Source: a virus. From it: a stretch of DNA of 20,731 bases. The notes beneath the pieces were generated by a model. The model was not told the origin of the DNA and searched no databases. It worked only from the letters and a program-made list of their open reading frames with translations. The number at the start of each line of letters is the position of its first letter. Within the stretch, counting starts at the first letter, position 1. Below, piece by piece: positions 114-19,232 of this stretch. The position numbers were made by a program, and so were the translations under genes. The stretch is from the IMG/VR virus record IMGVR_UViG_3300033150_002282, positions 1-20,731 of that record. One strand, given 5' to 3'.

Positions 114-355
114 TGAAGATCAAAAATCGTGATAACATCGTTCACGGTGTCAACCTTGCGACTTCTCCTCCGACATCTCTGCACTTGTCTCCCGGTGAAA
201 TTTCGAAGCCTCTTAAAAAAGAGGTTGTTGAAACATCAGCGGAAGTGTTGAATATGTTGAAGAAAAAGAAATTCGTGGTGGTTGAAGAAGTGAAAGATGA
301 AACCTCCTCCAAACCTAAGATTGAATCAAAAAAAGGTAAAGGAGGAAAAGGCTAA
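113..355 (+). CDS. Small basic-tailed protein upstream of tail sheath, unknown function
   Basis: This is an 80-residue protein. A strong GGAGG at 101-105 fixes the start. The ATG overlaps the upstream stop, and its own TAA overlaps the sheath ATG, so the three genes are translationally coupled. Residues 1-40 include NLATSPPTSLHLSPGE, which resembles short phage proteins that end in a small beta domain. Residues 41-80 are highly charged, with lysine runs (KKKK) and a Lys/Gly tail (KGKGGKG) that is likely disordered. There is no signal peptide or membrane segment. Small proteins in this position are common before sheath genes in myoviruses, but I do not recognise the family. A role in head-tail joining or sheath assembly is only a guess. 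Confidence 0.75.
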   Translation: MKIKNRDNIVHGVNLATSPPTSLHLSPGEISKPLKKEVVETSAEVLNMLKKKKFVVVEEVKDETSSKPKIESKKGKGGKG

Positions 356-2316
356 TGACCGAGACTTTACACCCCGGCGTATATTTAGTTGAGAAGGGTG
401 GACAGCCTTTGATTGCCGGTGTCGGCGTTTCTGCCGGTGGCCTTGTTGGAATTTGTAAAAAAGGCCCACTGGACGAACCGGGACTCGCAACAAGTTGGGG
501 CGACTACCAGCGGCTCTACGGAGGATTTTATAAAAACTCCTACGCCGCAATTTCCGCGTTCTTATTTTTTGAGAACGGCGGGGAAAGATTGTACGTTGCG
601 CGAGTAGCAGGTGCGGGAGCACTCACGGCGACTTCGATTTTGAAGTCGATGAACAACACCGCAGATGCGATTGATTGTTCTGCAACAAGTGTGGGTGCGT
701 GGGGCGATAACATGGCCTTGTATACCGCGAAATATGTAGGCGAAACTAATGCCATTCTTGCAACGGGAGAGGCTGAAATCGAACTGAAAAGTTTGCTGAA
801 CGTCGAACTCGGAGACAGGGTCATAATCAGCGACGGCGTAACTACGGTTACCGTGACCATCCTGACGATTAACTTGTCTACAAACGTGATCGGTTTTGCC
901 GCAGTAACTTTGGGTGCGCCGATACCGTCAGGCAGTGACGTAAGATGCAGCTCAACGCACAGGTCGAGTACGACAATTTCAGCGGACTTGGAAACTGGCG
1001 CAACCGTCGCATACCTTACCGAAGCCGGTTCAGTAGTAGTCGGTTCGGTAATTACGTTTGCGTCTGCCGCGCAAGAAATGGACGTAGTAGTAACAGCAGT
1101 GAACGGGAATCAGGTAGCCTTCGCCGCAGTCACTTTGTCGGCGACAATCGTTTCCGGCTCAATCGCAGTCACACAGGAATTTAATTTGAGAGTTTACGAT
1201 CAGGGAACACAAACCGAAGGTACTCACCAATATCTTTCAATGGAATCGACGAATTCAGTTGACTATTTTGAGAACAGACTTTCGGGCAACGGCAATCAAT
1301 CATTCTTTGTCGAACTTCTGATAGACACACCGATAGGAACGCTTGCCGGTTTGAAGATTCCTTATCCCGTCGAGAACGCTGCGCTTTCCGGTGGTAACGA
1401 TGGAACAACTCCGGTTGACGGAGACTATACCGGCAGTTCTGTTCTTGGCGCAGAAACGGGTTTACACTTGTTTGACAAGATCGACGAACTTAACCTTATC
1501 TGCATTCCAGGCGTTACATCAATAACAGTTGAATCGTATCTGATTACGTGGTGTCAGAACAGGGCAGCAAACGCCGACCCGGTGTTTCCACTTCTTGATG
1601 TTCCGTATGCCTATGACACCGCTCTTGAGGCTAAGAATTTCAAGGAAGTGCAGTTAAACCGAGATACGTCACACGGTGGTCTTTTTTATCCGTGGTACAT
1701 TTTCAACAGTCCCGATTCTCCGACGACAACTATAGACATTCCACCTTCCGGTGCCAACATGGGAATTTATTCGCGTGTGGCGTCACTCAGGGGTGTTCAC
1801 AAGGCTCCTGCGAACGAAGAAGTGCGGGGAATTGTCGGACTGACACACAGAACAACGGACGGAGAACAAGACATCCTCAATCCTATCGGGGTCAACGTGA
1901 CTCGAATCTTTACAGGACGAGGTATTCGTTTGTTCGGCGCACGTACACTCACCACGACTTATGATGGTAGGCACTATGTTCACAAGCGGCTGACCCTTAA
2001 CTACATCGAGGAATCAATCGCAGAGGCTCTTATGAAATATGTATTTGAGCCTCACCACGAAGACACTTGGGATCAGATGCGTTTAGAAGCGCAGGTTTTC
2101 TTAAATACCATGTGGTCGCAAGGAGCCTTACAACCTCGCGACGATAGATCACAAGCATACTTTGTAAAGATTGACGAAACTAACAACCCGCAATCCGAGC
2201 GCGATCTTGGACGCCTCAACATCGAGGTAGGAGTCAACATCGTAGGGACTGCGGAGTTCATCATTTTCACTGCCGGACTTTGGGACGGCGGCGCACTGAT
2301 TCAGGAGGTAACATAA
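355..2316 (+). CDS. Contractile tail sheath protein
   Basis: A 653-residue sheath subunit that forms the contractile outer tube and drives the inner tube through the host envelope. The N-terminus (HPGVYLVEKGG near residue 6) followed by GLVGICKKGP (30-38) and a GGERLYVARV strand (75-84) is the typical phage sheath start. The C-terminus, from about residue 540, has RLTLNYIEESIAEALMKYV and, around 600-650, the conserved end domain that packs on the tube. At 653 residues it is longer than minimal sheaths of about 400-500. The extra length includes a beta-rich insertion at about residues 140-275 containing a tandem duplication (listed separately), expected to face outward. GGAGG at 341-345 supports the start. 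The stop is two bases before the first tube gene, whose ribosome site (AGGAGG) lies inside the sheath end. Confidence 0.95.
   Translation: MTETLHPGVYLVEKGGQPLIAGVGVSAGGLVGICKKGPLDEPGLATSWGDYQRLYGGFYKNSYAAISAFLFFENGGERLYVARVAGAGALTATSILKSMNNTADAIDCSATSVGAWGDNMALYTAKYVGETNAILATGEAEIELKSLLNVELGDRVIISDGVTTVTVTILTINLSTNVIGFAAVTLGAPIPSGSDVRCSSTHRSSTTISADLETGATVAYLTEAGSVVVGSVITFASAAQEMDVVVTAVNGNQVAFAAVTLSATIVSGSIAVTQEFNLRVYDQGTQTEGTHQYLSMESTNSVDYFENRLSGNGNQSFFVELLIDTPIGTLAGLKIPYPVENAALSGGNDGTTPVDGDYTGSSVLGAETGLHLFDKIDELNLICIPGVTSITVESYLITWCQNRAANADPVFPLLDVPYAYDTALEAKNFKEVQLNRDTSHGGLFYPWYIFNSPDSPTTTIDIPPSGANMGIYSRVASLRGVHKAPANEEVRGIVGLTHRTTDGEQDILNPIGVNVTRIFTGRGIRLFGARTLTTTYDGRHYVHKRLTLNYIEESIAEALMKYVFEPHHEDTWDQMRLEAQVFLNTMWSQGALQPRDDRSQAYFVKIDETNNPQSERDLGRLNIEVGVNIVGTAEFIIFTAGLWDGGALIQEVT
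802..1170 (+). repeat. Tandem duplicated beta domain within the sheath insertion
   Basis: Two related units of about 47 residues lie at sheath residues 150-196 and 225-272. Each runs from a V(E/V)xGxxVI strand to the shared motif FAAVTL followed by a small residue, Ala and SGS. FAAVTL occurs at residues 181-186 and 256-261, exactly 75 residues apart. The DNA is also similar (TTTGCCGCAGTAACTTTG against TTCGCCGCAGTCACTTTG), so this is a true internal duplication. It lies in the part of the sheath that varies most between phages. Confidence 0.75.
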
Positions 2317-2826: not shown

Positions 2827-3342
2827 ATGACTGTGATTCTCGGACGCAAGCCGCAACCTTTAATGAAATTTCGCTACCGAGTTTTTATTCCCGGTTTTGA
2901 AGAAATGGGTTTTACAAAGGTGCGCGGCCTGCGGTCTGAGGTTCCAGTTTTGGAAGTTGAAGAGGGTGGTAATCAAGTGCCTTATAAATTTCCAGATCGC
3001 AAAGTTAATTTTGGTAACGTGCTTCTTGAAACCGGCCTCGCCAAAGCAAAGGATTTGAGGTTGTGGTTTGAGGAACATTTACGATGGAGTAGAGGTTTGC
3101 AATCACCAATTTATCGACCTGTGCTAATTACCGTTCTGGATAAAAGATACCGTCCAGAAAAGGCATGGGAACTTTTTAACGCTTGGCCCACAATTATAGA
3201 ATCCGATGGACTTGACGCGAACTCAAACGATGTAGTGTTACAAACAATCGAACTTGCGAACTTCGGTATTGCAAGTCGCAACTTAGGTACTGGACAAAAA
3301 TTATCTGGTGGCCTTCAACATAGTTTTTCTGCGTTTGCATAA
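2827..3342 (+). CDS. Tail tube protein 2 (T4 gp19-like family, paralogue)
   Basis: A 171-residue second gp19-family protein. It shares the family layout with its upstream neighbour: KFRYRVFIPGFEEMGFTKV near residues 14-32, a VLEVEEGGNQVPYKFPDRK loop at about 46-64, FGNVLLETG, a helix with LRLWFEEH, and the turn ANSNDVVLQTIELANFG near 135-151. It has an extra Gly/Ser-rich tail of about 20 residues. An in-frame upstream ATG at 2818 is followed directly by TAA, so the ATG at 2827, downstream of TAGGAGGA, is the start. Paralogous tube proteins in tandem are well known in extracellular contractile injection systems, where one forms the tube and others form the rings joining it to the baseplate spike. 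The same division is plausible here. Confidence 0.87.
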   Translation: MTVILGRKPQPLMKFRYRVFIPGFEEMGFTKVRGLRSEVPVLEVEEGGNQVPYKFPDRKVNFGNVLLETGLAKAKDLRLWFEEHLRWSRGLQSPIYRPVLITVLDKRYRPEKAWELFNAWPTIIESDGLDANSNDVVLQTIELANFGIASRNLGTGQKLSGGLQHSFSAFA

Positions 3343-4717: not shown

Positions 4718-6526
4718 ATGCCAGTACTGCCACTTTTTATAATACTGAGAAACAAAAGTGCGACTACGCCTTGGGATATTAGTGCGTTTGGATTTCGGAT
4801 TGCGGTTGCACCTTCTACCGACTTGCAAGTAGACAGTTACAAAGTTGATTTTCAACTCAAGTTAGCAATAAGGGTTGGTATACTAACATTATCTGCCGAA
4901 AACGTTTTGGTAATACCTGATCCACTTGCGGTTTCAGGTGAAAGGGAAATTTCTGATTCTCAGGAATATTGGTGCGATTCCGCTCCAACTATTACTCAGT
5001 GGGATCATGCAAACCCAATGCCGAAACAGATAGTTCAAAAAAATAGCAGTGGGACTTTAACAGGTGACGATTTGGGCGTAGTGTTATGTCTTGGTACCTT
5101 TACCTTAACTTTGCCTCCGGCAACGAGTTTTAACGTCGGTCAGTCTTATTTTTGTAATAATGTTGGCACCGGAGTAATTACATTTAACGGTGCCATAACT
5201 ACCAACTTCGAATTGCTTCCCGACGACAGTATTGAATTCATAAGCAAAGGGCCAAACTGGGAACCGATTTTTAGAGAAGTACATTCGCCACCTTCGACCA
5301 AAGTTTATATCGACAAAGGCAGGTCGGATATTTACGTCGAAGACGGAACAAGAGAATTTCCTTTCAAGGCTGTGACCAGTGCGATAAGTGCGCATCCGTC
5401 AGGTGCCGTAATTTTGTATATTGCCAAAGGAGTTTATTCGGGTGATCTTGTTTTAGGGCAAGACATGAATCTATCCGGGTCGCACATGAAAGATGTAGAT
5501 ATAGACGGTAATATTACTACGAACGCAAGTGGATTTACGGCTTTGTCGGACTTGCATTGCCGTGGAATCATTATAACAAACTGCCAAACTAAAATGACTC
5601 GTGTTTCGTGCATTAGTGAATTACGGACTAATGCCAACACAACCTTAATAGATTGCGAGTTAATAAATGCAACAAAAGATGCGCCTATATGGAAGCAAAG
5701 CGGCGGCGAAATTCAAGCACTCAGTTGTGCGATTCAAGTTAACAATAACAATGCGATAGAATCACTTGATGGATCGAGCGGAAGTATCACTTTGACTGCT
5801 TGTTCGGTAACGAATAATTCCGCAGTCTCGGAAACCATAAACATTCGTGCGGGTTCAACAACGATATTGAAGATTGAAAGTGGTGTTGTAGTAAATAATG
5901 GTGGTGGCGATTCCGTTTGTATTAACACAACTGCTCCTGTAGGTACTGCCGTCTTACATGATGTTTTTTTAGACGGTGATGTTGACATTTACAATACACC
6001 TACTTCTATCATCGGGGAGCATGGAAACATTACAATTTCCGCACAAAATGAGGCGTATAAACTTTTTCAGAAAGCAAGCCGTCTTACCAATGACTCTTCG
6101 GTGCCAGGGAATACGGTTAAAGATGCACTTGAGAATTTACTCAAAAAGACTATGCACTTTTCTTTTTCAGATGGTGCCGCAAATCCTTATATAGAAGGAA
6201 GTGCAACAAACGGGTGGGAAGCATTTTCGACAGTTTTGTTTTCCGGTTCAGATTTTATAGGAATACCAAATGTAGTTGCCGTAATAATTTCAAACAGTAG
6301 TGCCGGAGGTGGTTGTGATTGGCAAATACTCGATATTACAAACGCAAGCAACGTAATAGCTTCAGGAGGAAATCCCGGTACGGGGACTACGCCCACAATA
6401 GATAAGGATAGTTCCCTTACAAATATTTCTACCAGTGAAGCTCAATGGGAATTTCAGATAAGAAGAAATCCGACTTTAACCGGGAAAGCAAGAATTTCAT
6501 CACTGGAGGTACGGTTTAATGTATAA
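4718..6526 (+). CDS. Tail fibre/tailspike-like protein with beta-helix repeats
   Basis: A 602-residue protein after a clear AAAGGAGAAA site. Residues 1-75 are an unrecognised N-terminal domain. Residues about 105-190 match the small beta domain common in tail fibres (SSGTLTGDDLGVVLCLGTFT, then VGQSYFCNNVGTGVITF, then SIEFISKGPNWEPI). Residues about 195-435 start with VYIDKGRSDIYVEDGTREFPF and continue with short Ile/Val/Thr/Asn-rich strands, the look of a right-handed parallel beta-helix that binds or cuts surface polysaccharide. Residues about 450-480 include RLTNDSSVPGNTVKDALENL, a typical linker before a trimer domain. The last 120 residues are a beta-rich tip. I see no convincing glycosidase or lyase residues, so it may only bind. 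It overlaps the next gene by 8 bases. Confidence 0.72.
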   Translation: MPVLPLFIILRNKSATTPWDISAFGFRIAVAPSTDLQVDSYKVDFQLKLAIRVGILTLSAENVLVIPDPLAVSGEREISDSQEYWCDSAPTITQWDHANPMPKQIVQKNSSGTLTGDDLGVVLCLGTFTLTLPPATSFNVGQSYFCNNVGTGVITFNGAITTNFELLPDDSIEFISKGPNWEPIFREVHSPPSTKVYIDKGRSDIYVEDGTREFPFKAVTSAISAHPSGAVILYIAKGVYSGDLVLGQDMNLSGSHMKDVDIDGNITTNASGFTALSDLHCRGIIITNCQTKMTRVSCISELRTNANTTLIDCELINATKDAPIWKQSGGEIQALSCAIQVNNNNAIESLDGSSGSITLTACSVTNNSAVSETINIRAGSTTILKIESGVVVNNGGGDSVCINTTAPVGTAVLHDVFLDGDVDIYNTPTSIIGEHGNITISAQNEAYKLFQKASRLTNDSSVPGNTVKDALENLLKKTMHFSFSDGAANPYIEGSATNGWEAFSTVLFSGSDFIGIPNVVAVIISNSSAGGGCDWQILDITNASNVIASGGNPGTGTTPTIDKDSSLTNISTSEAQWEFQIRRNPTLTGKARISSLEVRFNV

Positions 6527-7406
6527 ATGGCGGTTGTATTGTGAAACGTGCGAGTTGCAAAAGTTTGTAGTACAAGAAAACGATCCGATTGAACCAACCG
6601 AATGTCCGACTTGTCACGGAATCAATATCAGGGGAATCGTCATAGTCGATACCGATGTAGTTAAAATAAATAATCTCGTTGTAGGCGCAGATAAAGATTG
6701 TGGTAGCGAATGTGTTGGCATTCACTTAGGTGGAACAAGCCCGCTGTGTATGAAATGGGATTATGAGACAGAAAGAGTTGAGTTTCTTTCGTGTGACGAT
6801 AATCCTGTTGATTTTGCAGCTAAAAACTTATCTTGTAAAGGTGATACTAATTTTGGAGATGGAGATGATGATAATCACAGCAGATTCGGAAGTGAAGCAT
6901 GGATTGGTAATTTGTTGCATGGCAGAAAAGCAACTGATTCTTATCCGGAATTAAGATGGTCGCTTGATAGTAAAACAGGAAAGAGCAAATTTATTTCTAC
7001 AGAATTTACACCAATTTCAGCCGACGACGCTGATAGCGGATCAATGTTTGTAGATGTAGAAGATGATGAAATAAAGTTTAAAGATGCTGCCGGTGTATCA
7101 CGAAAACTTGCAACAGGAGGAGTTATTATGGGTCGAAACAAGACATACGACGATGCCAGTTTTAAAACGGAAGACAGTCCGACTGTGCTTGATGTTAACA
7201 CCGATCTGGAAAGGAATGGGACAGCCGGATTTATCGAAAATTATGGCAGTGGAAATATTCAAGTAGAAATTTCAGATGACGGAGATAGTTTTGGCGAACC
7301 ATTCGTGATTCGGCCTGGCAAAAATTTTGATTTACAATGTTTGAATGTAGATCAAGTTAGGTTAACCTGGATAGAAGATACGTCATATCAGGTGGTGGTC
7401 TGGTGA
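6519..7406 (+). CDS. Probable structural/fibre protein with N-terminal zinc ribbon
   Basis: A 295-residue protein whose ATG lies inside the end of the previous gene (8-base overlap) and follows GGAGGT there. Residues 8-32 carry two Cys pairs, CETC and CPTC, spaced like a zinc ribbon, which is rare at the tip of a fibre-type protein. Two or more further Cys (near residues 65-70 and 79) follow. The middle (about 105-195) is Asp-rich and contains a tail-fibre-like segment, SADDADSGSMFVDVEDDEI, then FKDAAGVSRKLATGG. The last 90 residues are beta-rich (GNIQVEISDDGDSFGEPFVI), like a small jelly-roll or binding domain. The family is not recognised. A virion role is inferred from the fibre-like segment and its place in the block. 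Confidence 0.6.
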   Translation: MYKWRLYCETCELQKFVVQENDPIEPTECPTCHGINIRGIVIVDTDVVKINNLVVGADKDCGSECVGIHLGGTSPLCMKWDYETERVEFLSCDDNPVDFAAKNLSCKGDTNFGDGDDDNHSRFGSEAWIGNLLHGRKATDSYPELRWSLDSKTGKSKFISTEFTPISADDADSGSMFVDVEDDEIKFKDAAGVSRKLATGGVIMGRNKTYDDASFKTEDSPTVLDVNTDLERNGTAGFIENYGSGNIQVEISDDGDSFGEPFVIRPGKNFDLQCLNVDQVRLTWIEDTSYQVVVW

Positions 7407-7489
7407 ACCACTACTATTAGGCGCGGCAAAACGAAGACGGCGATTTCGACAGCGAACTTAGAATATTAAAAGACAAGGAGCATAGGGCA

Positions 7490-7711
7490 ATGAATTATTA
7501 CTACATCGTAAGCGCAGGCGACGATGGCCGCATCCTCATTGACGTCCCTTACAGGCTTATGACACACACACCTGTCCGCACCGTTGTTCAAACAGATGTT
7601 CCAGCATCCGTCTTTAGTCAGGAATTAACCGCAAACAATCCTTCTGTGAAATCTTTCCTGAGGCAATGGAGCGATTTTCCAGAATCCAAACCGGAGCTGA
7701 CAAATGGCTAA
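7490..7711 (+). CDS. Small hypothetical protein, possibly 5'-truncated remnant
   Basis: A 73-residue protein starting MNYYYIVSAGDDGRILIDVP, with AAGGAG about 10 bases before the ATG. No known motif is seen. It is beta-like in the first half (two runs ending at a proline) and helix-like near SVKSFLRQW. It overlaps the next gene by 8 bases. The same frame stays open upstream from 7421 (23 sense codons after a TAG at 7418-7420, with no start codon), and that upstream stretch reads like ordinary protein, so the gene may have lost its original 5' end. GC content jumps upward at the same place. It may be a chaperone or partner of the adhesin-like protein that follows, but nothing shows this directly. 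Confidence 0.55.
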   Translation: MNYYYIVSAGDDGRILIDVPYRLMTHTPVRTVVQTDVPASVFSQELTANNPSVKSFLRQWSDFPESKPELTNG

Positions 7712-8831
7712 CACTTATGGTGTCGTCGGCACCGGAGTCTTTGAAATTGACACCAGTGCAGATGTCGCGGATCTCACAGCGCTTAAAGGAAGTCCGCCGG
7801 CCAGTACGGATATACTTTATAGTTTCGACAGCGCCTGTGTCGACATTAACGAAGACATGGATATTCTCTGGACTCATATCGGAGATAACCAGGCCGGAGA
7901 TCGGCCCACCAAAGAAGGCTTCATAGACGTCCAGGCCGATGTCGCTCTTACATACCATCACACTGTTAATAACGGTGGCTTGTACGGTGTAGGTCTCACC
8001 AGCAGATTTCGCTTGCTCGGCACAAGCGCGGATCATCGTGCGAAAATCGTCGGCAACACTGTGAAGCCCGGCCTCTATTACATGATACAGCCTTATGTTG
8101 AATCTACGTGGGGACACATATACAACTTTCGCGCCGGTATCGTTTCGATAAATTCCAACAGCACTTTCGTCGACACACTTGTAGAAAATAATAGTTATGG
8201 ATTTCTTTTTGCGGGCGGCGCGTCGCGGAAATATTTACCCGCGTCAATCCTCAGAACCCGTTTCGTTAATTGCGTCTACGGCTGGTGCGACCTCTCGACT
8301 TTCGGCGCGGATCTGGAAACATACCTCATCGCCAACGACGTCAGTTTCGAGGGCGGAGCGACCCAGGAAAGCCACCTCAACATCGGATTCGGCTCCGGGG
8401 GCGGCGCAAAAGCAAAATACATCTATTACACCGAAGCGGATAACTCCATCATCGCTCCGCCCTCGTGGGACAGCACCGCTGGTGTCCAGGCGCTCGCGGC
8501 AAACGACAACCTCACGTTGAGCGCTTCGTGGAACGGCGCTACACATGCGAATGGCGATAATGTTTTTTATAGGATATACATTCGGGCCGACGCCGCTCCA
8601 GACTCATTCGGCGAAGACAGCGAATATTTCTTGGCAGAAACAACGAATGAGAATTTCATTATTGCATCCTATGCCGATGGCTCTGTTTTGAAAATTGGAA
8701 GTGATGTTCATGTTATTATTCGGGCCGTTACAAAAATAAGCGGCGAAGATGACAATACTACCAGCCTCAATACTGTGGTTGCCGGTGAAGGTGGAAATTA
8801 TCTCAGATGTGGTTCTCGACTAACGAATTAA
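7704..8831 (+). CDS. Adhesin-like fibre protein with C-terminal fibronectin III-like domain
   Basis: A 375-residue protein with the start inside the end of the previous gene and CGGAG in front. Residues 1-80 are a compact N-terminal region. About 85-245 shows beta-helix-like rungs with alternating Ile/Val and Asn/Ser (KIVGNTVKPGLYYMI, then NSNSTFVDTLVENNSYGFLF, then RTRFVNCVYGWCDLS). Residues about 251-359 look like one fibronectin type III domain, beginning IIAPPSWDSTAGVQ, with LTLSASWNGATHANGDNVFY and a late HVIIRAVTKISG strand. The DNA is GC-rich up to about base 8550 (38 of 60 bases are G or C in 8341-8400) and then drops to the window norm inside the last domain, which suggests a recombination join within the gene. 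It is likely a receptor-binding or decoration protein. Confidence 0.62.
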   Translation: MANTYGVVGTGVFEIDTSADVADLTALKGSPPASTDILYSFDSACVDINEDMDILWTHIGDNQAGDRPTKEGFIDVQADVALTYHHTVNNGGLYGVGLTSRFRLLGTSADHRAKIVGNTVKPGLYYMIQPYVESTWGHIYNFRAGIVSINSNSTFVDTLVENNSYGFLFAGGASRKYLPASILRTRFVNCVYGWCDLSTFGADLETYLIANDVSFEGGATQESHLNIGFGSGGGAKAKYIYYTEADNSIIAPPSWDSTAGVQALAANDNLTLSASWNGATHANGDNVFYRIYIRADAAPDSFGEDSEYFLAETTNENFIIASYADGSVLKIGSDVHVIIRAVTKISGEDDNTTSLNTVVAGEGGNYLRCGSRLTN

Positions 8832-8845
8832 GGGATTTTTGATTA

Positions 8846-9793
8846 ATGCGAAAAAATATAAAATATCAAGAAAACACACAAGGCGGTATCACTGCTTGGT
8901 CTACTAAGGGTTTGGATAAACAAATACTCGTCTATAGAAACGCAGGGGGCGCAGGTGACATTCTAATGCACCGCGTATTATTTGAAGGGATTAAACAAAA
9001 ACATGATTGCAATTTAACCGTAGCGATTCCAGAAAAATATTTTCCTCTTATCTGCGATCATCCTGCAGTAGATAGAATCATTGACTGTAAAAATATTAAC
9101 AATAAAAATGGATACAAAAGATCATTTAATACTCTTGGTAAAGCGGCAATTTATGAGTTTGCCAAAATGCCTTTTGTAGATCAACATCGCACCGATTTGT
9201 GGGCATCATATTTAGGAATTAAAATAAATGGATATAAAGCACGTTTCAGATTTACTGGCAGAGAATTGAATATGGCAGATCATTTTTTTGTAAATTTCAA
9301 GAGACCATTTGTTGGAATTTCTCCCGTAAGTGCACATCCAAGTAAAGACTTAAAACGAAGTGTAATTCAGGAACTAATCAATATGCTCAATTCTAAAGGT
9401 GCCAGTTGTTTTATTTTTCATTCAGAACCATTGGAATATGAACACGCGGTTGATGTGAATGTCGGACTCAGAGAATGGTTGTGTCTGACACGAAGATTGG
9501 ATGCGGTAGTAACAGTAGCAACGAGTATGTTTCATGTTGCTAATTTGTTTCACATTCCAACCGTTGCAATTTTTGGTGTCGAAGATTTGAGAATTTTTGG
9601 AAAATATTTTCCCGAAATGATTCCGATTCAAAGAACAAGAAAAAGTCCAGAGTGGCCGTACTGTCCTTGTTGGAGTAGTCTTGATTGTAAGTTGCGTCCT
9701 AAAAACGAAAGAGAAATTTATCCACCACCGTGTCTACAATCTATAACTTCTGAGGAAATTTATGAAAAAACAAAAAAAATTATCGAAATATGA
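8846..9793 (+). CDS. GT9-like (heptosyltransferase-type) glycosyltransferase
   Basis: A 315-residue GT-B protein of the ADP-heptose:LPS heptosyltransferase type (GT9). The N-terminal lobe has YRNAGGAGDILM at residues 30-41, the usual Gly-rich loop of this family. The second lobe begins near 154 (FVGISPVSAHPSKDL, the position of the family's donor-phosphate loop). The stretch DAVVTVATSMFHVANLFHIP (219-238) followed by TVAIFG is the family's donor-site signature. A late Cys cluster (CPCWSSLDC, 273-281) is also common in GT9. The sugar it transfers is unknown. It is the first gene of the glycan cassette, after a weak ribosome site (AAGGGA), and it overlaps the next gene by 32 bases. It acts in the cytoplasm, on a host envelope glycan or a virion glycan. 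Confidence 0.82.
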   Translation: MRKNIKYQENTQGGITAWSTKGLDKQILVYRNAGGAGDILMHRVLFEGIKQKHDCNLTVAIPEKYFPLICDHPAVDRIIDCKNINNKNGYKRSFNTLGKAAIYEFAKMPFVDQHRTDLWASYLGIKINGYKARFRFTGRELNMADHFFVNFKRPFVGISPVSAHPSKDLKRSVIQELINMLNSKGASCFIFHSEPLEYEHAVDVNVGLREWLCLTRRLDAVVTVATSMFHVANLFHIPTVAIFGVEDLRIFGKYFPEMIPIQRTRKSPEWPYCPCWSSLDCKLRPKNEREIYPPPCLQSITSEEIYEKTKKIIEI

Positions 9794-10439
9794 ATACCAC
9801 AAATATTTCGACGAATCATATTTTAATGTTAGTGGAGATCGAGGATGGTATAATGAAGAAGCGTTTGCGCTTGAAAACGAGTGGCATAAAGATTATGCGG
9901 AATATGTAGTCAGTATGCTTAGTAAGATTAAAAAAGGAAAACTCCTTGACGTAGGTTGCGCCAGAGGAAATGTAATTTACTGGTTACGGAAAATGGGTTT
10001 TGATGCTTACGGAATTGACGTTAGTGAGTGGGCGATTAAAAATAATTGGGTTCGCAAAAAAACATATTGTGTTTCAGTTACGGATTGTATACCTTGTTTT
10101 CCTGAATTCTTTGACGTTATTATAAGCCGCGAAACGCTTGAACACATTTATGAAAAAGATATTTATCGTGTTATTCATCATTTAGCGGATGCACTAAAAA
10201 AAGGTGGTAAATTATTTATTGAAGTAGCAACAAATCGCGGTGATAAAGAAGAAAAAAAGAAAAGCAATCCAGATAACGCCGATCCGAGTCATGTTTTAAT
10301 AAAGTCGCTTACTTGGTGGAAACGTGTTTTTGAAGCAGAAGGTTTATTTAAAGTAGACCATGAGCGATCTTTTGAAGCAATGCATTCAGGTATGGGGTAT
10401 CGTTATTCGTGGGACATATTAATTTTAGAAAGGATGTAA
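9762..10439 (+). CDS. Class I SAM-dependent methyltransferase (small-molecule or sugar type)
   Basis: A 225-residue protein with a Rossmann methyltransferase core. Motif I is LLDVGCARGN (residues 61-70), the acidic loop is YGIDVS (83-88), and FFDVIISRETLEHI (116-129) is the usual post-I region of Methyltransf_11/23-type enzymes. KKGGKLFIEV near 147-156 is the following strand. The start at 9762 is chosen because TGAGGAAAT sits at normal distance inside the previous gene, giving a 32-base overlap and likely coupling. The substrate is not shown by the sequence. In a cluster of sugar enzymes a sugar O-methyltransferase is the simplest reading. The gene is AT-rich like its left neighbour and very unlike the GC-rich gene to its right. 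Confidence 0.82.
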   Translation: MKKQKKLSKYEYHKYFDESYFNVSGDRGWYNEEAFALENEWHKDYAEYVVSMLSKIKKGKLLDVGCARGNVIYWLRKMGFDAYGIDVSEWAIKNNWVRKKTYCVSVTDCIPCFPEFFDVIISRETLEHIYEKDIYRVIHHLADALKKGGKLFIEVATNRGDKEEKKKSNPDNADPSHVLIKSLTWWKRVFEAEGLFKVDHERSFEAMHSGMGYRYSWDILILERM

Positions 10440-10442
10440 ACA

Positions 10443-11627
10443 ATGAGAGTATTTATTGCCGGAATCGACGGATACCTCGGCTGGGCTTTAACATTGTACT
10501 TGTCGGCGCGCGGCCACGAGGTCGGCGGCTGCGACAACTACCTGCGCCGCAAATGCGTTGCGGAAATGAAATGCGATTCCGCCATCCCCATCCTTTCGAT
10601 GGAAGAACGGCTGGAGACGTTAAAGGAAAAATCGGGCAAAGAGGTCTTCTTCAGGGAAGGCGATCTTCTCGACTACGATTTCACTGAAAAGTGCCTGAAG
10701 GATTTCAAGCCTGAAGCCATTGTGCACCTGGGCGAAATACCTTCCGCTCCTTACAGCATGGTGGATGTGAAACATGCGGTGTTTACTCAGGAAAATAATA
10801 TCCTGAGCAACCTGAACCTGATGTTCGCCATGCGCGACGTTTGTCCGGAAGCTCAACTCGTTAAACTGGGCACCATGGGCGAGTACGGCACGCCGAACAT
10901 CGATATTCCTGAAGGTTTTTTTGAAATAGAATATCGCGGCAGAAAAGACCGCCTCCCCTTCCCCCGCCAGCCGGGCAGCTGGTATCACCTTACTAAAGTG
11001 CACGATACTTTCAACGTGATGTTCGCCTGCCGGATATGGGGCCTGTGCTCGACGGATATTATGCAGGGCGTGGTTTTCGGTACTCAGATCGATGAGATGG
11101 AGGGCGACCCGCGGCTGGCTACACGGTTCGATTTCGACGAGAGTTTCGGCACTGCCATCAACCGCTTCTGCGCCCAGGCTGTTATCGGAGAGCCGCTGAC
11201 TCCCTTTGGTGCGGGACACCAGAAACGCGGCTTCCTGCCCATGCGCGATTCCATGCAGTGCCTCACTCTTGCTATCACTAACCCGCCCAAAAAGGGCGAG
11301 TACCGCGTTTTCAACCAGTTCGAGGAAGTGTACGACATAACGCAGTTGTGCGAAATGGTGAAAGAGGTGGGCGGCGGGCTCGGCCTGGATGTCGAGGTGC
11401 GCAACATTGAAAACCCGCGTATGGAAAATGAAGACCACCGCTACGTGCCCGACCACCAGCACCTGCTCGACCTGGGCTACATTCCCACTCGCGACATAAA
11501 AGGCGAAATGAAAATCATGATCGAAGACCTGATCAAAAATAAGGACCGCATAGAAGAATACAAAGATACCCTCACACCCGAAATCCGCTGGGACGGAACA
11601 AGAAAAAAGGTAGATTATTTGAAATAA
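10443..11627 (+). CDS. sqdB: UDP-sulfoquinovose synthase-like enzyme (SQD1/SqdB family)
   Basis: A 394-residue extended short-chain dehydrogenase, close in length to SQD1/SqdB, which makes UDP-sulfoquinovose from UDP-glucose and sulfite with bound NAD. Features seen: the NAD loop GIDGYLGW (7-14); VHLGEIPSAPYSM (94-106); HAVFTQENN (111-119); KLGTMGEYGTPNIDIPEG (141-158), with the catalytic-type Thr144; and YHLTKVHD, with Tyr181 and Lys185. From memory these match Arabidopsis SQD1 Thr145, Tyr182 and Lys186. GTAINRFC, RGFLPMRDSMQC and RVFNQFEE also follow the SQD1 pattern from end to end. The gene is much GC-richer than its neighbours (42 of 60 bases in 10501-10560), suggesting recent transfer. 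Homologues with other activities may exist, so the exact product needs testing. GAAAGGA precedes the ATG. Confidence 0.85.
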   Translation: MRVFIAGIDGYLGWALTLYLSARGHEVGGCDNYLRRKCVAEMKCDSAIPILSMEERLETLKEKSGKEVFFREGDLLDYDFTEKCLKDFKPEAIVHLGEIPSAPYSMVDVKHAVFTQENNILSNLNLMFAMRDVCPEAQLVKLGTMGEYGTPNIDIPEGFFEIEYRGRKDRLPFPRQPGSWYHLTKVHDTFNVMFACRIWGLCSTDIMQGVVFGTQIDEMEGDPRLATRFDFDESFGTAINRFCAQAVIGEPLTPFGAGHQKRGFLPMRDSMQCLTLAITNPPKKGEYRVFNQFEEVYDITQLCEMVKEVGGGLGLDVEVRNIENPRMENEDHRYVPDHQHLLDLGYIPTRDIKGEMKIMIEDLIKNKDRIEEYKDTLTPEIRWDGTRKKVDYLK

Positions 11628-11673: not shown

Positions 11674-12750
11674 ATGAATTTCTTATATGTAACACACCAA
11701 CATTGCAGTCACAAAAACATGCGCGAACTCACGGTGACTCAATCGGCGGTTAACTGGATATATTGTTTACGTGGTGAAATCCTTAATTATAAAGACATTC
11801 CCGGTTACGATTTTAAACAGCATGACGTTATGATGATTTTTCTGTCGAATTTGCCCGAAACGATTGATCCGTATTTACAGTTGGTTGAAAAACATCCATG
11901 TAGTAAGGTCATAGTGTATCTTGATGGGCCTGTGGGGGTTCATTGCAATACTATGCTGCCGGAAGAAAAAACAAAATATATGCAAATTATCAGAAAGGCG
12001 GATTATGTTTTTACTTGGGCCGAAGATGCTGATAGCTACTTTGAGATAATGTCGGACGGCAAAAAAATTCATCATGTTAATATCCCTTATCCTATTGACT
12101 ACATCCGTTCCGTTCAAACAAATAAAAAATATAAATCAGAAATAGCAGTTGAGATGGGAAAGGGATTCGGCGGCAGGCGTTATGAGAGAAACACGCTTGG
12201 TTCTTGGGGTACTTTCGCAGCGTTACAAAAGAGGTTTCCAGACATACGTGCTCTTGCTCACCCAAACCATGATCCGGCCGGTAGCGGCGAACAACGTGTA
12301 AATGGGATTTATATGGAAGAAATTTTCGGCATAGACACCGGAACCGCTAAGAGCGGCGAAAGCAAATTTCTTGAATTAAGAATGGCGCCTTGGATGCACT
12401 ACGTCAGGGAATTAAGTCCGTGTTACATGGCGATTCACCTTGACATGCTTTACACAAGAGGACAGTTTCAATATGAATGTGCGGGATTAAAAATTCCTTG
12501 CATCTGTTCTGGTTCGGATGCGGGCAGAAAACTTTATCCGAGAACATTTCTCGACAATCCATTTAATATAGCCAAGGCGATTGAAATAGGAACTCGACTT
12601 ATCGAAGATGAAAAATTTTATGAAGAAGTTGTAGAATATGCCGAACGTAAATTAATTGAAGACCATTCGTATGAAGCAGTTCAACATCGCGTTCTTGAAA
12701 TTTTAGACAAGTTACCAAAATCATTCGAAGAAGAAAAAGGAACGAAATAA
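11674..12750 (+). CDS. GT-B glycosyltransferase (GT4-like C-terminal half)
   Basis: A 358-residue cytoplasmic protein. The N-terminal half alternates strand and helix (VMMIFLSNLPETID, KVIVYLDGPVGV, ADYVFTWAEDA), as in GT-B acceptor lobes. The C-terminal half has the typical donor-lobe order of GT4-type enzymes: GQFQYECAGLKIPCICSGSD (about 268-287), in which a Glu followed by a small-residue switch marks the nucleotide-sugar site, then a late helix pair, NPFNIAKAIEIGTRLIEDEKF, and a final ALLC-like stretch. It lies directly after the SQD1-like gene, so it is a candidate for transferring that enzyme's product, as SqdX/SQD2 does in sulfolipid synthesis, though I see no specific SqdX signature. 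A run of AGGGAG precedes the ATG. The gene is AT-rich, unlike the SQD1-like gene. Confidence 0.7.
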   Translation: MNFLYVTHQHCSHKNMRELTVTQSAVNWIYCLRGEILNYKDIPGYDFKQHDVMMIFLSNLPETIDPYLQLVEKHPCSKVIVYLDGPVGVHCNTMLPEEKTKYMQIIRKADYVFTWAEDADSYFEIMSDGKKIHHVNIPYPIDYIRSVQTNKKYKSEIAVEMGKGFGGRRYERNTLGSWGTFAALQKRFPDIRALAHPNHDPAGSGEQRVNGIYMEEIFGIDTGTAKSGESKFLELRMAPWMHYVRELSPCYMAIHLDMLYTRGQFQYECAGLKIPCICSGSDAGRKLYPRTFLDNPFNIAKAIEIGTRLIEDEKFYEEVVEYAERKLIEDHSYEAVQHRVLEILDKLPKSFEEEKGTK

Positions 12751-12794: not shown

Positions 12795-13907
12795 ATGACA
12801 AGCATCGACCGTTGGAAAAATATCGGGAAACAAATTGATTTTAAGGTGTCAATATGGATCGGTGGCGGACTCGGAGATTGTGCGCATCATTATAAAAATC
12901 TCGCATATTTTAGAGTTCTTCAGCACTTGAAACAAATATTTCCAAATTTATATGTTATCTTGCAAATCGTTGGGAATGGTGCAAACTTTACTCGACAACT
13001 ATTTGAACTCGATCCTTGTATAGATGAAATAGTAACTGCAAGTGAAAACGGTTTTATGTTTGATTCTGTATATTCATTTATGCAAGATGATTGTAATTTG
13101 AATAAGTATGAGTACGGTCGGTTTAGGCCGGAGACAAATCCAGATGTTACATTCCGTCGCGCAGTAAATCGAGTGTATGCGCTCATTAGATTTCCGAGAC
13201 AACACACAATCACAATGGATGATTTTTTTCAGCAACTACAACTTGACATAAACGATTTCAAACATGACCTTGCAGAGATACACCTATCTTCAGAAGAGAA
13301 GGAGTTTGGAGATACTTTTAAGGCCGTTAATGGAGACAAACCTTTAGTCGGAATTCATTGGTTTTCAAAAGATGAAGGGCGCACATGCCTCTCTGCATCG
13401 AAGTGGTGTAAAATTATTGACAAGCTTTTGGAAATAAATTATCGAATAGTAGTTTTCGGCGCACCGCACGAAAAGGATTTGAATAATCTGAATTCTATTT
13501 ATCATAAACGAACAGCCGAGTTGTTTGGTTTGTGGGATAAAATAAAAGATAAAAAGGAAGTTTATGGATTATTTGACGAACCAATCCGCAAAAAAATTGC
13601 TGTATTAAAACAATGTGATTATATGCTGTGCATAGACGGGGGAATGATGCACCTGGCTTGGTTGCATGCTGTACCTACTCTTGCCGTTGTAGAGAAACCA
13701 AAACAAGGTAGGGGTTACCTCGATAATGTTAATGGTTATCATTGGGCTGCGGCAGCAGGAGAGCCTTTTGCGGGAAGATTGATTAGTGATTGTGGAATGT
13801 CGGACGACTTATCGGCGGATAAGATAATAAGTGAAATGAAGAAACTGGACGGCACGAAAGATAAAAGAAAAAGTCTTATTTGGAGGGATCAAAATGCTGT
13901 GGAATAA
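12795..13907 (+). CDS. Second GT9-like GT-B glycosyltransferase
   Basis: A 370-residue protein with the GT9 layout: VSIWIGGGLGDCAHH at residues 18-32 (Gly-rich loop followed by Asp), KPLVGIHWFSKDEGRTCLS at about 182-200 (second-lobe start), IVVFGAPHEKDLNN, then the donor-site segment CDYMLCIDGGMMHLAWLHAV (274-293) followed by PTLAVVEKP. It is diverged from the GT9-like gene at 8846, so a recent duplication is unlikely. The start at 12795 follows GAGG at 12783-12786. An ATG at 12790 is in another frame and stops at once. The gene follows HP2 directly and overlaps the next methyltransferase gene by 14 bases. The transferred sugar is unknown. Confidence 0.78.
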   Translation: MTSIDRWKNIGKQIDFKVSIWIGGGLGDCAHHYKNLAYFRVLQHLKQIFPNLYVILQIVGNGANFTRQLFELDPCIDEIVTASENGFMFDSVYSFMQDDCNLNKYEYGRFRPETNPDVTFRRAVNRVYALIRFPRQHTITMDDFFQQLQLDINDFKHDLAEIHLSSEEKEFGDTFKAVNGDKPLVGIHWFSKDEGRTCLSASKWCKIIDKLLEINYRIVVFGAPHEKDLNNLNSIYHKRTAELFGLWDKIKDKKEVYGLFDEPIRKKIAVLKQCDYMLCIDGGMMHLAWLHAVPTLAVVEKPKQGRGYLDNVNGYHWAAAAGEPFAGRLISDCGMSDDLSADKIISEMKKLDGTKDKRKSLIWRDQNAVE

Positions 13908-14673
13908 AGTATACGAAGAGTCGGATTTAAAAGACGGCTTGTCTGCTGAGTCAAACGAGATTAATGATCTTATTGACAGCCTTCATTCAAATGGCGTGCC
14001 GCTAACGGTTCACCGAATACGATACTGGGAGTGGCCTCTGAATCTTCACGTGGCGGAAGTAAAGGAAGGAGATCGAGTTTTAGATATTGGAGTTGGTGGA
14101 AGTCCGCTTCTCGTTGCGTTTAAGAACAGAGGGTGCGAGTGTTATGGTTGCGATAAAGATAACTTAAATCCGATTTATGAGAAACACTTGTCGAATCTTG
14201 GAATCAATTTTTTATCTGCAAACATTTTTAACCTACCTTTCGAAGACAATTATTTCGACTTCGTTACCAGCACATGCGTGCTCGAACACATTGACAATCT
14301 CAAAATCGAAGACCGTCAACCATTCTTGAACTCCATCGTGAAAGGCCTGACAGAAACAATTCGTGTTTTGAAACCGGGAACGTTATCTTCACACACTATC
14401 GACTTTAAAATTTTTGGGTTTAATGGGTGGAGCCAATTCAATAAATATGACATATCAAAAATTGTAAACAATTTAAAGGGACTTGCTAAACAGGCTGGCG
14501 GAGTAAATTATGAAGTTGCGGATGGACGGGAATATTATCTGAGAGAAAACCCTATCCATTCACCAAATTCAGAAAAGGCAAAAATAACTCGCGCATGCCT
14601 TGAGAACAAAATGAGATTGGCGGATGGTAGCATGAGAACTTGCGCGTCACTCGTGCTTAGAAAAGGAGTTTAA
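13894..14673 (+). CDS. Class I SAM-dependent methyltransferase
   Basis: A 259-residue methyltransferase. After about 55 N-terminal residues (TVHRIRYWEWPLNL), motif I is VLDIGVGGSPLL (62-73), then CYGCDKDN (83-90), LPFEDNYFDFVTSTCVLEHI (114-133) and RVLKPG near 157, all typical of the Methyltransf_11 group. The C-terminal third (about 164-250) has a domain with ReaderxNPIHS-like segments (REYYLRENPIHS) that may hold the acceptor. GGAGGG lies in the end of the previous gene just before the ATG, consistent with translational coupling (14-base overlap). The target is unknown. In this cluster it probably methylates a sugar or glycan end, but a small-molecule or protein substrate cannot be excluded. 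Confidence 0.8.
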   Translation: MLWNKVYEESDLKDGLSAESNEINDLIDSLHSNGVPLTVHRIRYWEWPLNLHVAEVKEGDRVLDIGVGGSPLLVAFKNRGCECYGCDKDNLNPIYEKHLSNLGINFLSANIFNLPFEDNYFDFVTSTCVLEHIDNLKIEDRQPFLNSIVKGLTETIRVLKPGTLSSHTIDFKIFGFNGWSQFNKYDISKIVNNLKGLAKQAGGVNYEVADGREYYLRENPIHSPNSEKAKITRACLENKMRLADGSMRTCASLVLRKGV

Positions 14674-15698: not shown

Positions 15699-16676
15699 AT
15701 GGGCAACGACAAATCAAAGTCAGTTGACACAGGCCAGGACGAGAAGGAGAGTAGAGAACAGAAAGTTAAAGCCGGGATGGAGCAGGCAAAAGTAATGGAA
15801 GAAAGGGGTAGCCTTGCGCCCGATTCTCAATCTACACCCGTATCAGTCCCACAAACCTCAAACGAAACCTACGGCAAAAAAGAAAGTAACAACGGTATTC
15901 CCGAAGAAGAACCGGCAATGACGGTGGATGGTGAAATCCGCTTGCCTGTTGGGATCATTGATGACGGCGGCATCGTTCACAGCATCGCCACAGTAAAAGG
16001 GCTCTCAGGTAAAATTCGAGTAATGCTTGCGCAGCCGGAATGTCGCAAAAACGGTGGACGTGCACTTTCAACTTTGCTCCGAGAATGTGTAACTTCAATC
16101 GGAGATTTGCAACTTGGTAGTCCAGAAAAAGATTATATTCTCGATCTTACCGTTCCGGATCGTGACGTGTTGGCATTTGCTATCAGACAAAAGAGTTCGG
16201 GGCTCGATGACGAAATTGAAACTACAGGTGATTGTCCTCACTGTGAAGAAAAGATTAATATTTCTTTTACTTTAGACAATCTTGAAACGACTAACGTAAG
16301 CGAAACCATTTTTAAGCCGGAAGGAAAAAATTGGGTCGGGTATTTTAAGAATGAAAAACTCGGTTGTGATTTCAAACTTAAACTTCCTAATGGGAAGATT
16401 CAGGAAAAAGTTGTGCCTTTTGGAAAAACCAATCCGGTTAAAATGGCATATTTAACTCTACAACTTTCCTTACTTGAATATAACGGTCAAATAAATTTCA
16501 GAAAAAATTTTATTGAAGAAGAACTTGACCTCGAACATTTAGATTGGATTGATAAAAAGTTCGGAGAAAGTTCACCTGGTTTGAACACTATGCCGTTAAT
16601 TCAATGTGAAGAGTGCGGTCAGACCTTTCCCGCAAAACTTGATATAGTGGATTTTATGTTCAACCGGCAGAGGTAG
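15699..16676 (+). CDS. Cys-rich tail assembly/baseplate-type protein (probable tape-measure chaperone)
   Basis: A 325-residue protein. Residues 1-75 are polar and likely disordered. Residues about 77-165 form a compact domain (IRLPVGIIDDGGIVHSIATV, then GRALSTLLRECVTSIGDLQL, then LTVPDRDVLAFAIRQKS) of the kind in T4-type baseplate/assembly proteins encoded before tape measure genes. Two CxxC pairs, CPHC (179-182) and CEEC (303-306), 124 residues apart, could bind one zinc and close the C-terminal region. The gene follows promoter and HP3, with AAGGAGG as ribosome site, and is followed by a GpE-like gene and the tape measure, the usual order chaperone, chaperone, tape measure. Assembly factor is therefore the best call; structural baseplate protein is the alternative. 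Confidence 0.68.
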   Translation: MGNDKSKSVDTGQDEKESREQKVKAGMEQAKVMEERGSLAPDSQSTPVSVPQTSNETYGKKESNNGIPEEEPAMTVDGEIRLPVGIIDDGGIVHSIATVKGLSGKIRVMLAQPECRKNGGRALSTLLRECVTSIGDLQLGSPEKDYILDLTVPDRDVLAFAIRQKSSGLDDEIETTGDCPHCEEKINISFTLDNLETTNVSETIFKPEGKNWVGYFKNEKLGCDFKLKLPNGKIQEKVVPFGKTNPVKMAYLTLQLSLLEYNGQINFRKNFIEEELDLEHLDWIDKKFGESSPGLNTMPLIQCEECGQTFPAKLDIVDFMFNRQR

Positions 16677-16835: not shown

Positions 16836-19232
16836 ATGGTTGCCGGATCAATGGGAATGGGTCTTGTACTTACCTTTAAGGATTTCGCGTCTAAAGGAAT
16901 GAAGACCGCCGAAAAGAATTTTGGCAAGTTAGACGATGCAACCGAACGCGGTATAAAAACTCAGAAGAGAGCGGTTATTGCTACAAAGGTTGGAGCGGGT
17001 GCAATGATTGGTGGGGCGGGTATTATATTCGCCTTGAAAAAAACTGTTGATGAATCAGCAAAATACAGTCATGCGATGACGAAGTTTCAAGCCGTTTCGG
17101 GTGCTACTACTAAAGCTGTTCAGAGTATGAGTAAAAATTTCCTTGAATATTCTGCGGCACTTCCTGTTTCCGCTCATGAGATGGCCGAAGTCGCTATGGG
17201 TGCTGCTCGAATGGGTATTTTTGCAGAACAAGGTCAAAAAGGAACAGAAGCGTTTTCTATTGCTATAATTGAATTAGGGTCGGTAATGGAAACGGTTCCC
17301 ATTGATGAATTAAGCAGGAGTGTCGGGAAAATGATGGGATTATTTAGAACGGCACCGGAAGACCTCGGACGGCTAACTTCTGCCTTACTCTATACTGCAA
17401 GTTCTTCTAAAGTTACCGAAAGCGAACTCTTGGATACTACCGAGGGTTTATTAGGACTTTCAAGAATGATGAATTGGACAGAGGCACAAACAATAGGAAT
17501 GGCGGGAGCAATTGGTGATGCTGCAACTACATCTCAGGTAGGTGCGTCTGCGATGACTCGGTTCTTTTCTCTGATGGCTACGGACATGGATAAATTTGCT
17601 AAGTTTGTTGGAATATCCGAAGCGGAATTACGACAGAAATTTCGGAAAGATGCACCCGCCACGTTAGGATTGTTTATTGATAAATTAAAATCAATGAGTG
17701 GAACTGCGGATTTACAGTTAAAAGCACTTGATGAACTCGGCTTGGGAGGAGTTCGAGTTGGAAGGGCTTTAATGGGATTGGGTGGAATTCAAACATCGCT
17801 ACAAGAAAAAATGGCTGCTGCCACTAAAAAGTTTGATGAAGGTACTTATTCGCATGAACAGTTTTTGAAAGTAACAGAAAGTTTAACTTCAAAGTCAAAA
17901 ACTGCTGCTGGTTCAGTGTCGAATTTAGGAATAATAATGGGGAAAATATTAGAACCGGCAGTTATTAAAATAACGGATGCAGTTATTAATCTTTTATCAT
18001 GGCTTATAAATTTGTCTCCCGCGACTCAAAAGGCAGTTACTTTTTTTGCGGCGGGGTTAGGTATATTTCTACTCGTAGGTGGCGCGTTAGCTGTCATGGG
18101 TGGCATGGCAACGTATGCCGCAGTAAGCATTGGTGGACTTGGAAAAGTTTTTATGTTCCTAAACGAAAGTACAATTTTGACCAGAGTATATCTTTCAGAG
18201 GTAGGAGACAAAATTGTTGCAACATCTAAAAAAGCTGCTCTTGCCGCAGCAACTGGTATTAAAAAATTTGCATCTTCCCTTGTAATGGCGGGAAAAAAAG
18301 CTCTTGCTTTTTCAATTACATTAATACGAAACGCGGCTGCGGCAGTAGCGTCTTTTGCGGTTACAATGGCTACCACGGCGGTTGCTGGAATAGTTGCATT
18401 TACGGCTGCTCTTGTACCCGCAATTGCAGGTGCTTGGGCATTTACAGTTGCTTTACTTGCAAATCCAATAACGTGGATAGTTCTTGGAATTGTGGCTTTG
18501 ATAGCCGGAATAGTTTTACTTGTAATGAACTGGGATAAAGTTTCAGCCGCATTAGGTGTCGCTTGGGAATGGATGAAAAATGTTTTCTCGGTTATGTGGG
18601 AAGGAGTAAAGAAAATTGCTGTAGCAGTTAAAGAAAAAATAGGCGGGGCGTTTATAGCTATATGGGAAGGAATGAAGCGGGTAGCAATAGGAATTAAAGA
18701 ATCTATTGGTAGTGCCTTTGCATGGATTTGGGATAAAGCAACAGGTTTAAAAGATAAAATAGTGGGAGTTTTTGAAGGAATAAAAACAGTAATAACCGGA
18801 ATTTGGTCTACCGCAGTAAATGTTTTTAAATGGGCCGTTAATAAATATTTAAGTTATCTTAATGTTCTTCTACTTCCGTTTAGAAAAATAGCACATAAAA
18901 TTGGAATTACAATTCCCGAAATTCCTAAATTTGATGTTGGTGGCACTGTAACTTTATCACCTAATTTTGAAGCGGGAGCAATTCCAAGAGGTATTAAAGT
19001 TCCCGCCATGCTTGAAGCCGGTGAAAGAGTAGCACCGGTCGGAGCGGCGGGGGCGGAATCTCTTTCTTCTCCATTTCGCCAGTCGTCGGGTGCGGAAATA
19101 AAAACGGTAGTAATTGAAATGCCAGTTTATCTTGACGGACGCGAAATTTATAGATCAATTAAAGAAGTTGCCTACGAAGAGGCGTCGCAAAACTTCTCAG
19201 TAAAGGAGAAGGTCGGAAGGGGAACTGAATAA
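16836..19232 (+). CDS. Tail tape measure protein (TP901-type)
   Basis: A 798-residue protein that sets tail length and passes through the tube on infection. Residues about 1-65 are a basic, Gly-containing start (AGAMIGGAGIIFALKK). About 75-380 is the TP901-type tape measure core (MTKFQAVSGATTKAVQSMSK, then LPVSAHEMAEVAMGAARMGI, then MTRFFSLMATDMDKFAKFVG). Hydrophobic segments lie at about 400-426 and 540-564. A Trp-led repeat region follows (566-656, listed separately), and the end carries a Gly/Ala/Ser-rich tail and the common PAMLEAGERVAPVGAAG motif (about 728). By the usual rule of about 0.15 nm per residue the tail would be near 120 nm. AAAAGGAAA lies about ten bases before the ATG. Confidence 0.92.
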   Translation: MVAGSMGMGLVLTFKDFASKGMKTAEKNFGKLDDATERGIKTQKRAVIATKVGAGAMIGGAGIIFALKKTVDESAKYSHAMTKFQAVSGATTKAVQSMSKNFLEYSAALPVSAHEMAEVAMGAARMGIFAEQGQKGTEAFSIAIIELGSVMETVPIDELSRSVGKMMGLFRTAPEDLGRLTSALLYTASSSKVTESELLDTTEGLLGLSRMMNWTEAQTIGMAGAIGDAATTSQVGASAMTRFFSLMATDMDKFAKFVGISEAELRQKFRKDAPATLGLFIDKLKSMSGTADLQLKALDELGLGGVRVGRALMGLGGIQTSLQEKMAAATKKFDEGTYSHEQFLKVTESLTSKSKTAAGSVSNLGIIMGKILEPAVIKITDAVINLLSWLINLSPATQKAVTFFAAGLGIFLLVGGALAVMGGMATYAAVSIGGLGKVFMFLNESTILTRVYLSEVGDKIVATSKKAALAAATGIKKFASSLVMAGKKALAFSITLIRNAAAAVASFAVTMATTAVAGIVAFTAALVPAIAGAWAFTVALLANPITWIVLGIVALIAGIVLLVMNWDKVSAALGVAWEWMKNVFSVMWEGVKKIAVAVKEKIGGAFIAIWEGMKRVAIGIKESIGSAFAWIWDKATGLKDKIVGVFEGIKTVITGIWSTAVNVFKWAVNKYLSYLNVLLLPFRKIAHKIGITIPEIPKFDVGGTVTLSPNFEAGAIPRGIKVPAMLEAGERVAPVGAAGAESLSSPFRQSSGAEIKTVVIEMPVYLDGREIYRSIKEVAYEEASQNFSVKEKVGRGTE
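18531..18803 (+). repeat. 22-residue Trp-led repeats in the tape measure protein
   Basis: Tryptophans stand at residues 566, 588, 610, 632 and 657, spaced 22, 22, 22 and 25. The middle two units are nearly identical in pattern: WEGVKKIAVAVKEKIGGAF and WEGMKRVAIGIKESIGSAF. The units look like amphipathic helices repeating along the tail lumen. This is repetition of protein sequence; codons differ, so it is old. Confidence 0.8.

Follow-up and report, generated by a model that had tools for sequence, protein, structure and literature searches.

An SQD1-family nucleotide-sugar enzyme with proline at an active-site arginine position in a phage tail module

What does a virus make when it encodes, among its tail genes, a protein resembling UDP-sulfoquinovose synthase? 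The question is raised by an IMG/VR virus record of 20,731 bases (analysed in full, and called the window here), in which an ATG-initiated ORF at 10443-11627 on the plus strand had been described, in an initial annotation, as a UDP-sulfoquinovose synthase-like gene inside a tail operon.

The cassette and its tail-module setting

The features of the window are as follows.

355..2316, plus strand: contractile tail sheath (phrog_23, E 8e-51)
2318-2803 and 2827-3342, plus strand: two tail-tube proteins (phrog_4542, TIGR02241)
3398-4699 (DUF2793), 4718-6526, 6519-7406 and 7704-8831, plus strand: four ORFs in fibre or appendage position, candidate acceptors
8846..9793, plus strand: GT9-family (heptosyltransferase-like) glycosyltransferase (PF01075, E 6e-8)
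9762..10439, plus strand: class I SAM methyltransferase, overlapping the preceding ORF and ending 3 bases before the SQD1-like ORF (PF13489, E 3e-20)
10443..11627, plus strand: SQD1-family nucleotide-sugar SDR of 394 aa, Pro-type, with Pro100 replacing the catalytic Arg (phmmer, NCBIfam, model, alignment)
11674..12750, plus strand: cassette ORF of 358 aa, its C-terminus glycosyltransferase-like by eye only
12795..13907, plus strand: second GT9-family glycosyltransferase (PF01075, E 3e-6)
13894..14673, plus strand: second class I SAM methyltransferase, overlapping the preceding ORF (PF08241, E 6e-13)
15699..16676, plus strand: T4-type baseplate protein (PF12322, E 1.5e-8; phrog_150)
16836..19232, plus strand: tail tape measure protein (phrog_28, E 6.5e-39)
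19232-19903 and 19905-20210, plus strand: CIS-tube/GpU-like protein and LysM protein (PF19266, PF01476)

The cassette runs in the order GT9, methyltransferase, SQD1-like gene, ORF of no family, GT9, methyltransferase, on one strand with tight spacing and partial overlaps. To its left lie the sheath, the tube proteins and the fibre-position ORFs, and to its right the baseplate, tape measure, CIS-tube-like and LysM genes; the glycosyltransferases and the sugar-nucleotide enzyme are thus co-directional with the tail genes. With GT9 genes on both sides and contractile-tail genes flanking the cassette on a viral contig, the proposed placement among glycosyltransferases in a tail module was borne out. 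The immediate neighbours of the SQD1-like gene are the methyltransferase upstream and, downstream, the ORF at 11674..12750, for which no match was found in Pfam up to E=1 or in PHROG or NCBIfam. Known phage glycosylation cassettes also bring glycosyltransferases, methyltransferases and a sugar-nucleotide SDR together beside structural genes; the present one differs in that its sugar-nucleotide enzyme belongs to the SQD1 family. No sulfite-forming gene was seen in the window, and no closer relatives of this phage turned up when IMG/VR was scanned with three single proteins, namely its sheath, its first tube protein and the product of the 11674 ORF.

The GC3 of the SQD1-like gene is 0.66 vs 0.25-0.40 in the neighbouring cassette genes. 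This contrast suggests a later arrival, that is, a recent acquisition from a GC-richer source. The same contrast would be expected of a non-functional passenger or of misassembled host DNA, a reading that we regard as very improbable: the ORF is intact, its catalytic residues are kept, and it is closely packed on the same strand as the phage tail genes that flank it left and right. These flanks, together with cassettes of a similar kind within the structural modules of further viral contigs (described below), argue strongly against a misassembled host contig.

Family, fold and the replaced arginine

The protein follows the SQD1/SqdB family nearly end to end, as had been proposed. A phmmer search of the PDB gave SQD1 (1qrr/1i24) as the best match, over residues 2-384 with an E-value of 4.5e-117 and 44% identity; the next family, UDP-glucuronate decarboxylases, followed at about 3e-6. 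An AlphaFold2 model (pLDDT 82.5, pTM 0.86, with low-confidence loops at 146-157 and 173-183) had as its closest folds in Foldseek three SQD1 entries at TM 0.86-0.87, followed by GalE-type enzymes at 0.60-0.69. The motifs named in the initial annotation were all found: GIDGYLGW (7-14), SAPYSM (101-106) and KLGTMGEYGTPNID (141-154), which includes TMGEY (144-148), together with the SDR triad of Thr144 and the Tyr181 and Lys185 of YxxxK. In full-length fold, NAD loop, triad and TMGEY stretch, the window enzyme is therefore like Arabidopsis SQD1 and SqdB.

The likeness ends at particular active-site positions. The nearest functional analogue is Agl3 of Sulfolobus acidocaldarius, which serves a surface glycan by providing sulfoquinovose for N-glycans. 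Alanine mutants of Agl3 at His95, Arg101, Met145, Tyr182 or Lys186 lost all activity, Glu147 and Tyr148 mutants were strongly impaired, and T144A was active (PMC4388408). Nine of the ten positions tested by mutation are kept in the window enzyme (His95, Thr144, Met145, Glu147, Tyr148, Ser179, Tyr181, Thr184 and Lys185). The tenth, equivalent to Arg101, is Pro100, the residue directly before SAPYSM, which the initial annotation had passed over; SQD1 and SqdB have arginine here, as does Agl3 according to its primer sequences (PMC4388408). Thus, the expectation that the sulfite and UDP-glucose pocket would be conserved holds at all but one of the tested positions, and the exception is a residue whose replacement by alanine inactivates Agl3. 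Since Agl3 activity was assayed as formation of UDP-glucose-5,6-ene without sulfite (PMC4388408), even the UDP-glucose half-reaction is not to be presumed for an enzyme with proline at this site.

The replacement is not peculiar to the window. Among 171 proteins, 136 have proline at this site (the window enzyme and 135 relatives), 34 have arginine and one has histidine. All 36 bacterial homologues from the first scan carry proline, as do L002 and L003, and a paralogue in a Syntrophaceae genome is likewise Pro-type. Arginine was found in SQD1, in the SqdB-type proteins of S. meliloti and Palleronia, and in Rhodococcus and Pseudonocardia. Two further positions change with it: residue 207 is Met in 111 of the 136 Pro-type proteins and Asn or His in the Arg-type, and residue 39 is Val in 103 of the 136 vs Asp in 33 of the 34 Arg-type proteins. 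The window enzyme has Met207 and Val39, and so departs from SQD1/SqdB at all three sites.

Could the enzyme nevertheless be an ordinary UDP-sulfoquinovose synthase acting on UDP-glucose and sulfite, with Arg101 not strictly needed and its loss compensated in Pro-type proteins? The retention of every other catalytic position argues for this, as does the ranking by NF041015, the NCBI equivalog model for UDP-sulfoquinovose synthase (cut-off 575 bits). The window protein scores 557 bits (E 1.9e-167), and proteins of its clade mostly score 536-580, above the roughly 460-505 of Arg-type bacterial proteins; a one-letter swap in two bacterial proteins indicated that, at this site, the model ranks Pro only about 2 bits below Arg. 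As a test of membership the score is uninformative, given this weak preference and the mere 332 bits of the S. meliloti SqdB-type protein. Against an ordinary synthase stand the inactivity of R101A in Agl3 (PMC4388408) and the preponderance of Pro over Arg, accompanied by correlated shifts at positions 39 and 207. On balance we think this reading unlikely.

Phylogeny also sets the enzyme apart. FastTree placed it within an all-Pro clade of 94 proteins (support 0.997), and an IQ-TREE analysis of 104 rows, from which the Pro/Arg column had been left out, could be explained by one Pro/Arg change (SH-aLRT 94). In a more careful tree of 62 rows, sampled without Agl3, the window clade had support of 100/100 on a stem of 0.39 and excluded SQD1, SqdB and every Arg-type protein; it also included some Pro-type proteins with Asn207. 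We do not claim a single origin of the proline: bootstraps of the careful tree required one to three Pro/Arg changes, 13% of them requiring one. By these sequence trees, sampled without Agl3, the separation of the window enzyme from the Arg-type proteins appears firm. An archaeal Arg-type enzyme could nonetheless branch near the window clade, because NF041015 scores this clade above the bacterial Arg-type proteins and Agl3 is absent from the tree. The tree proposed in the initial annotation consequently counts in part against the name given there, since the clade lies apart from SQD1 and SqdB. No characterised member of the clade is known.

These differences bear on another possibility, that the enzyme acts on a different UDP-hexose (UDP-galactose or UDP-GlcNAc, for example) or stops at the 5,6-ene or 4-keto stage. 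The loss of the essential arginine together with the change of Asn/His207 to Met, and the distinctness of the clade, are consistent with a changed product, as are the partner SDR and NeuA/B/C genes that recur near its relatives (see below). Furthermore, how sulfofucose (sulfoquinovose epimerised at C4) is made has, according to one paper, yet to be identified (PMC12421959). The argument would be weakened by an Arg-type enzyme close to the window clade, which a tree lacking Agl3 would not reveal. We consider a different sugar or product a real, if tentative, possibility.

Relatives in bacteria and in other viruses

The closest bacterial relatives are 62-70% identical and come from MAGs titled Deltaproteobacteria, Chloroflexi, Acidobacteria, Poribacteria and others. 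The neighbours of bacterial Pro-type genes were mainly GT2 glycosyltransferases (16 of 102 neighbours), other SDRs (7) and DUF2304 proteins (7), and in several cases NeuA/B/C. Around 19 Chloroflexota Arg-type genes, in contrast, GT4-type transferases were commonest (8 of 91), as expected since SqdX of sulfolipid synthesis is a GT4 enzyme. Both sets of counts are approximate, because genes in GC-rich contigs were called by a simple method. This difference between GT4-type surroundings and the GT2/epimerase/DUF2304/NeuB surroundings of Pro-type genes is a further point against an ordinary synthase; Pro-type genes lie in glycan or replication contexts rather than with sulfolipid genes.

Several details of these loci deserve mention. 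NeuA, NeuB or NeuC (nonulosonic acid) genes lie near Pro-type genes in both bacteria and viruses (L004 4977-9182, L011, L080, L112, L124, L129, L143), and UBA6112 (L004) carries a pair of Pro-type paralogues separated by about 4.3 kb. A DUF2304-type protein adjoins the Pro-type gene in L016, L017, L019, L023, L025, L026, L033 and the Natrinema plasmid L042, that is, in bacteria and one haloarchaeon, some of these loci also having a second epimerase-like SDR. In an Anaerolineae genome (L037 8001-9186; G008:C2:44301-45453) two frames that overlap together make up the homologue, the result of a frameshift or an assembly error.

The gene is widespread in phages. An alignment-based IMG/VR scan found relatives on 142 contigs, 80 of which were kept; of the 79 viral copies that could be scored at the site, 75 are Pro-type and four Arg-type. 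The four (on L087, L102, L119 and L145) may be genuine UDP-sulfoquinovose synthases. GenBank phages yielded no relative of the window enzyme. In L068, L072 and L074 the gene accompanies glycosyltransferases, methyltransferases or an SDR inside a head-tail structural module: it is followed in all three by connector, major tail or tape-measure genes (the L068 tape measure being assigned by position and length only), and in L068 and L074 it comes after a capsid gene. The search of viral genomes suggested at the outset thus recovered comparable cassettes. By the same token, the impression that no such case had been described does not survive: besides the 142 contigs, at least three of them with the gene in a head-tail structural module, a 2020 paper described a Mu-like phage from the Cariaco Basin that carries a putative UDP-sulfoquinovose synthase (PMC7785012). 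That viral copy was named after the same family and given a proposed role in glycosylation; it differs from ours in belonging to a Mu-like phage, and the main text, as far as seen, presents neither a tail cassette nor an active-site analysis.

In L078 a terminase-like gene stands on one side of the SQD1-like gene and putative head genes on the other; the SQD1-like gene is preceded by an SDR and, closely, by a PAPS/APS-reductase-type gene (7063-9188; PF01507, E 9e-43; CC, CxxC, ECGIH). The same type of neighbour stands directly before the SQD1-like gene in a bacterial Terriglobia contig (L030 5561-7734; CC, CxxC, ECG[IL]H). This pairing fits a sulfite co-substrate and is a possible dedicated sulfite supply in both contigs; it is also what an ordinary synthase would predict.

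A virus-only branch of 37 differs in setting, most of its members having the gene in a replication module and not in a glycan cassette. The order there is a deoxycytidylate-deaminase-like gene, the SQD1-like gene, then ParB-methylase, UDG-DNA polymerase A and DUF3987, as in L082 (7270-15911), L092, L120, L127 (7432-14890) and roughly 30 other contigs of viruses. A nucleotide-sugar enzyme is unexpected in such a module.

Proposed function and implications

UDP-sulfoquinovose as the product of the window enzyme is not established, because of Pro100 and of a clade that takes in neither SQD1 nor SqdB; of the initial description, the family, the catalytic residues and the setting in a tail module stand and the product name does not. 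The reading we prefer, with a probability of about 0.5, is that of a horizontally acquired Pro-type SQD1-family enzyme whose UDP-6-modified hexose is used by the phage glycosyltransferases and methyltransferases as a decoration. The enzyme would bind NAD+ and a UDP-hexose, oxidise C4 and eliminate water across C5-C6 as SQD1 and Agl3 do; because the catalytic residues are kept, action to the 4-keto/5,6-ene stage is likely. Addition of sulfite, or possibly of another nucleophile, is plausible and would yield a UDP-hexose modified at C6, with a UDP-6-sulfohexose of the sulfoquinovose or sulfofucose kind as the most likely product. The neighbouring enzymes would then place the sugar on tail fibres or on a host surface glycan; this destination, like the substrate, the sulfite addition and the benefit, is what we infer. 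More speculatively, and with considerable doubt, the whole Pro-type group may form an SQD1 subfamily, rich in phage members, whose substrate or product has changed (a sulfofucose route, for example, or a different sugar nucleotide of the 6-sulfo or 5,6-ene type), used for sulfonating tail or host-surface glycans, the replication-module branch perhaps serving DNA or nucleotide modification.

No experimental test of the Pro-type branch was found in the literature searched. Databases would label the whole branch UDP-sulfoquinovose synthase, despite the loss of a residue essential in Agl3, and for one phage gene a viral metabolic hypothesis has already been built on that name (PMC7785012). Judged by its sequences, what looked like a single curiosity is a defined, widespread Pro-type branch, favoured by phages, within a known enzyme family. 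Viral and bacterial Pro-type proteins that can be expressed would tell whether phages make sulfonated sugars, which ones, and where these are placed, and could answer the question of sulfofucose biosynthesis.
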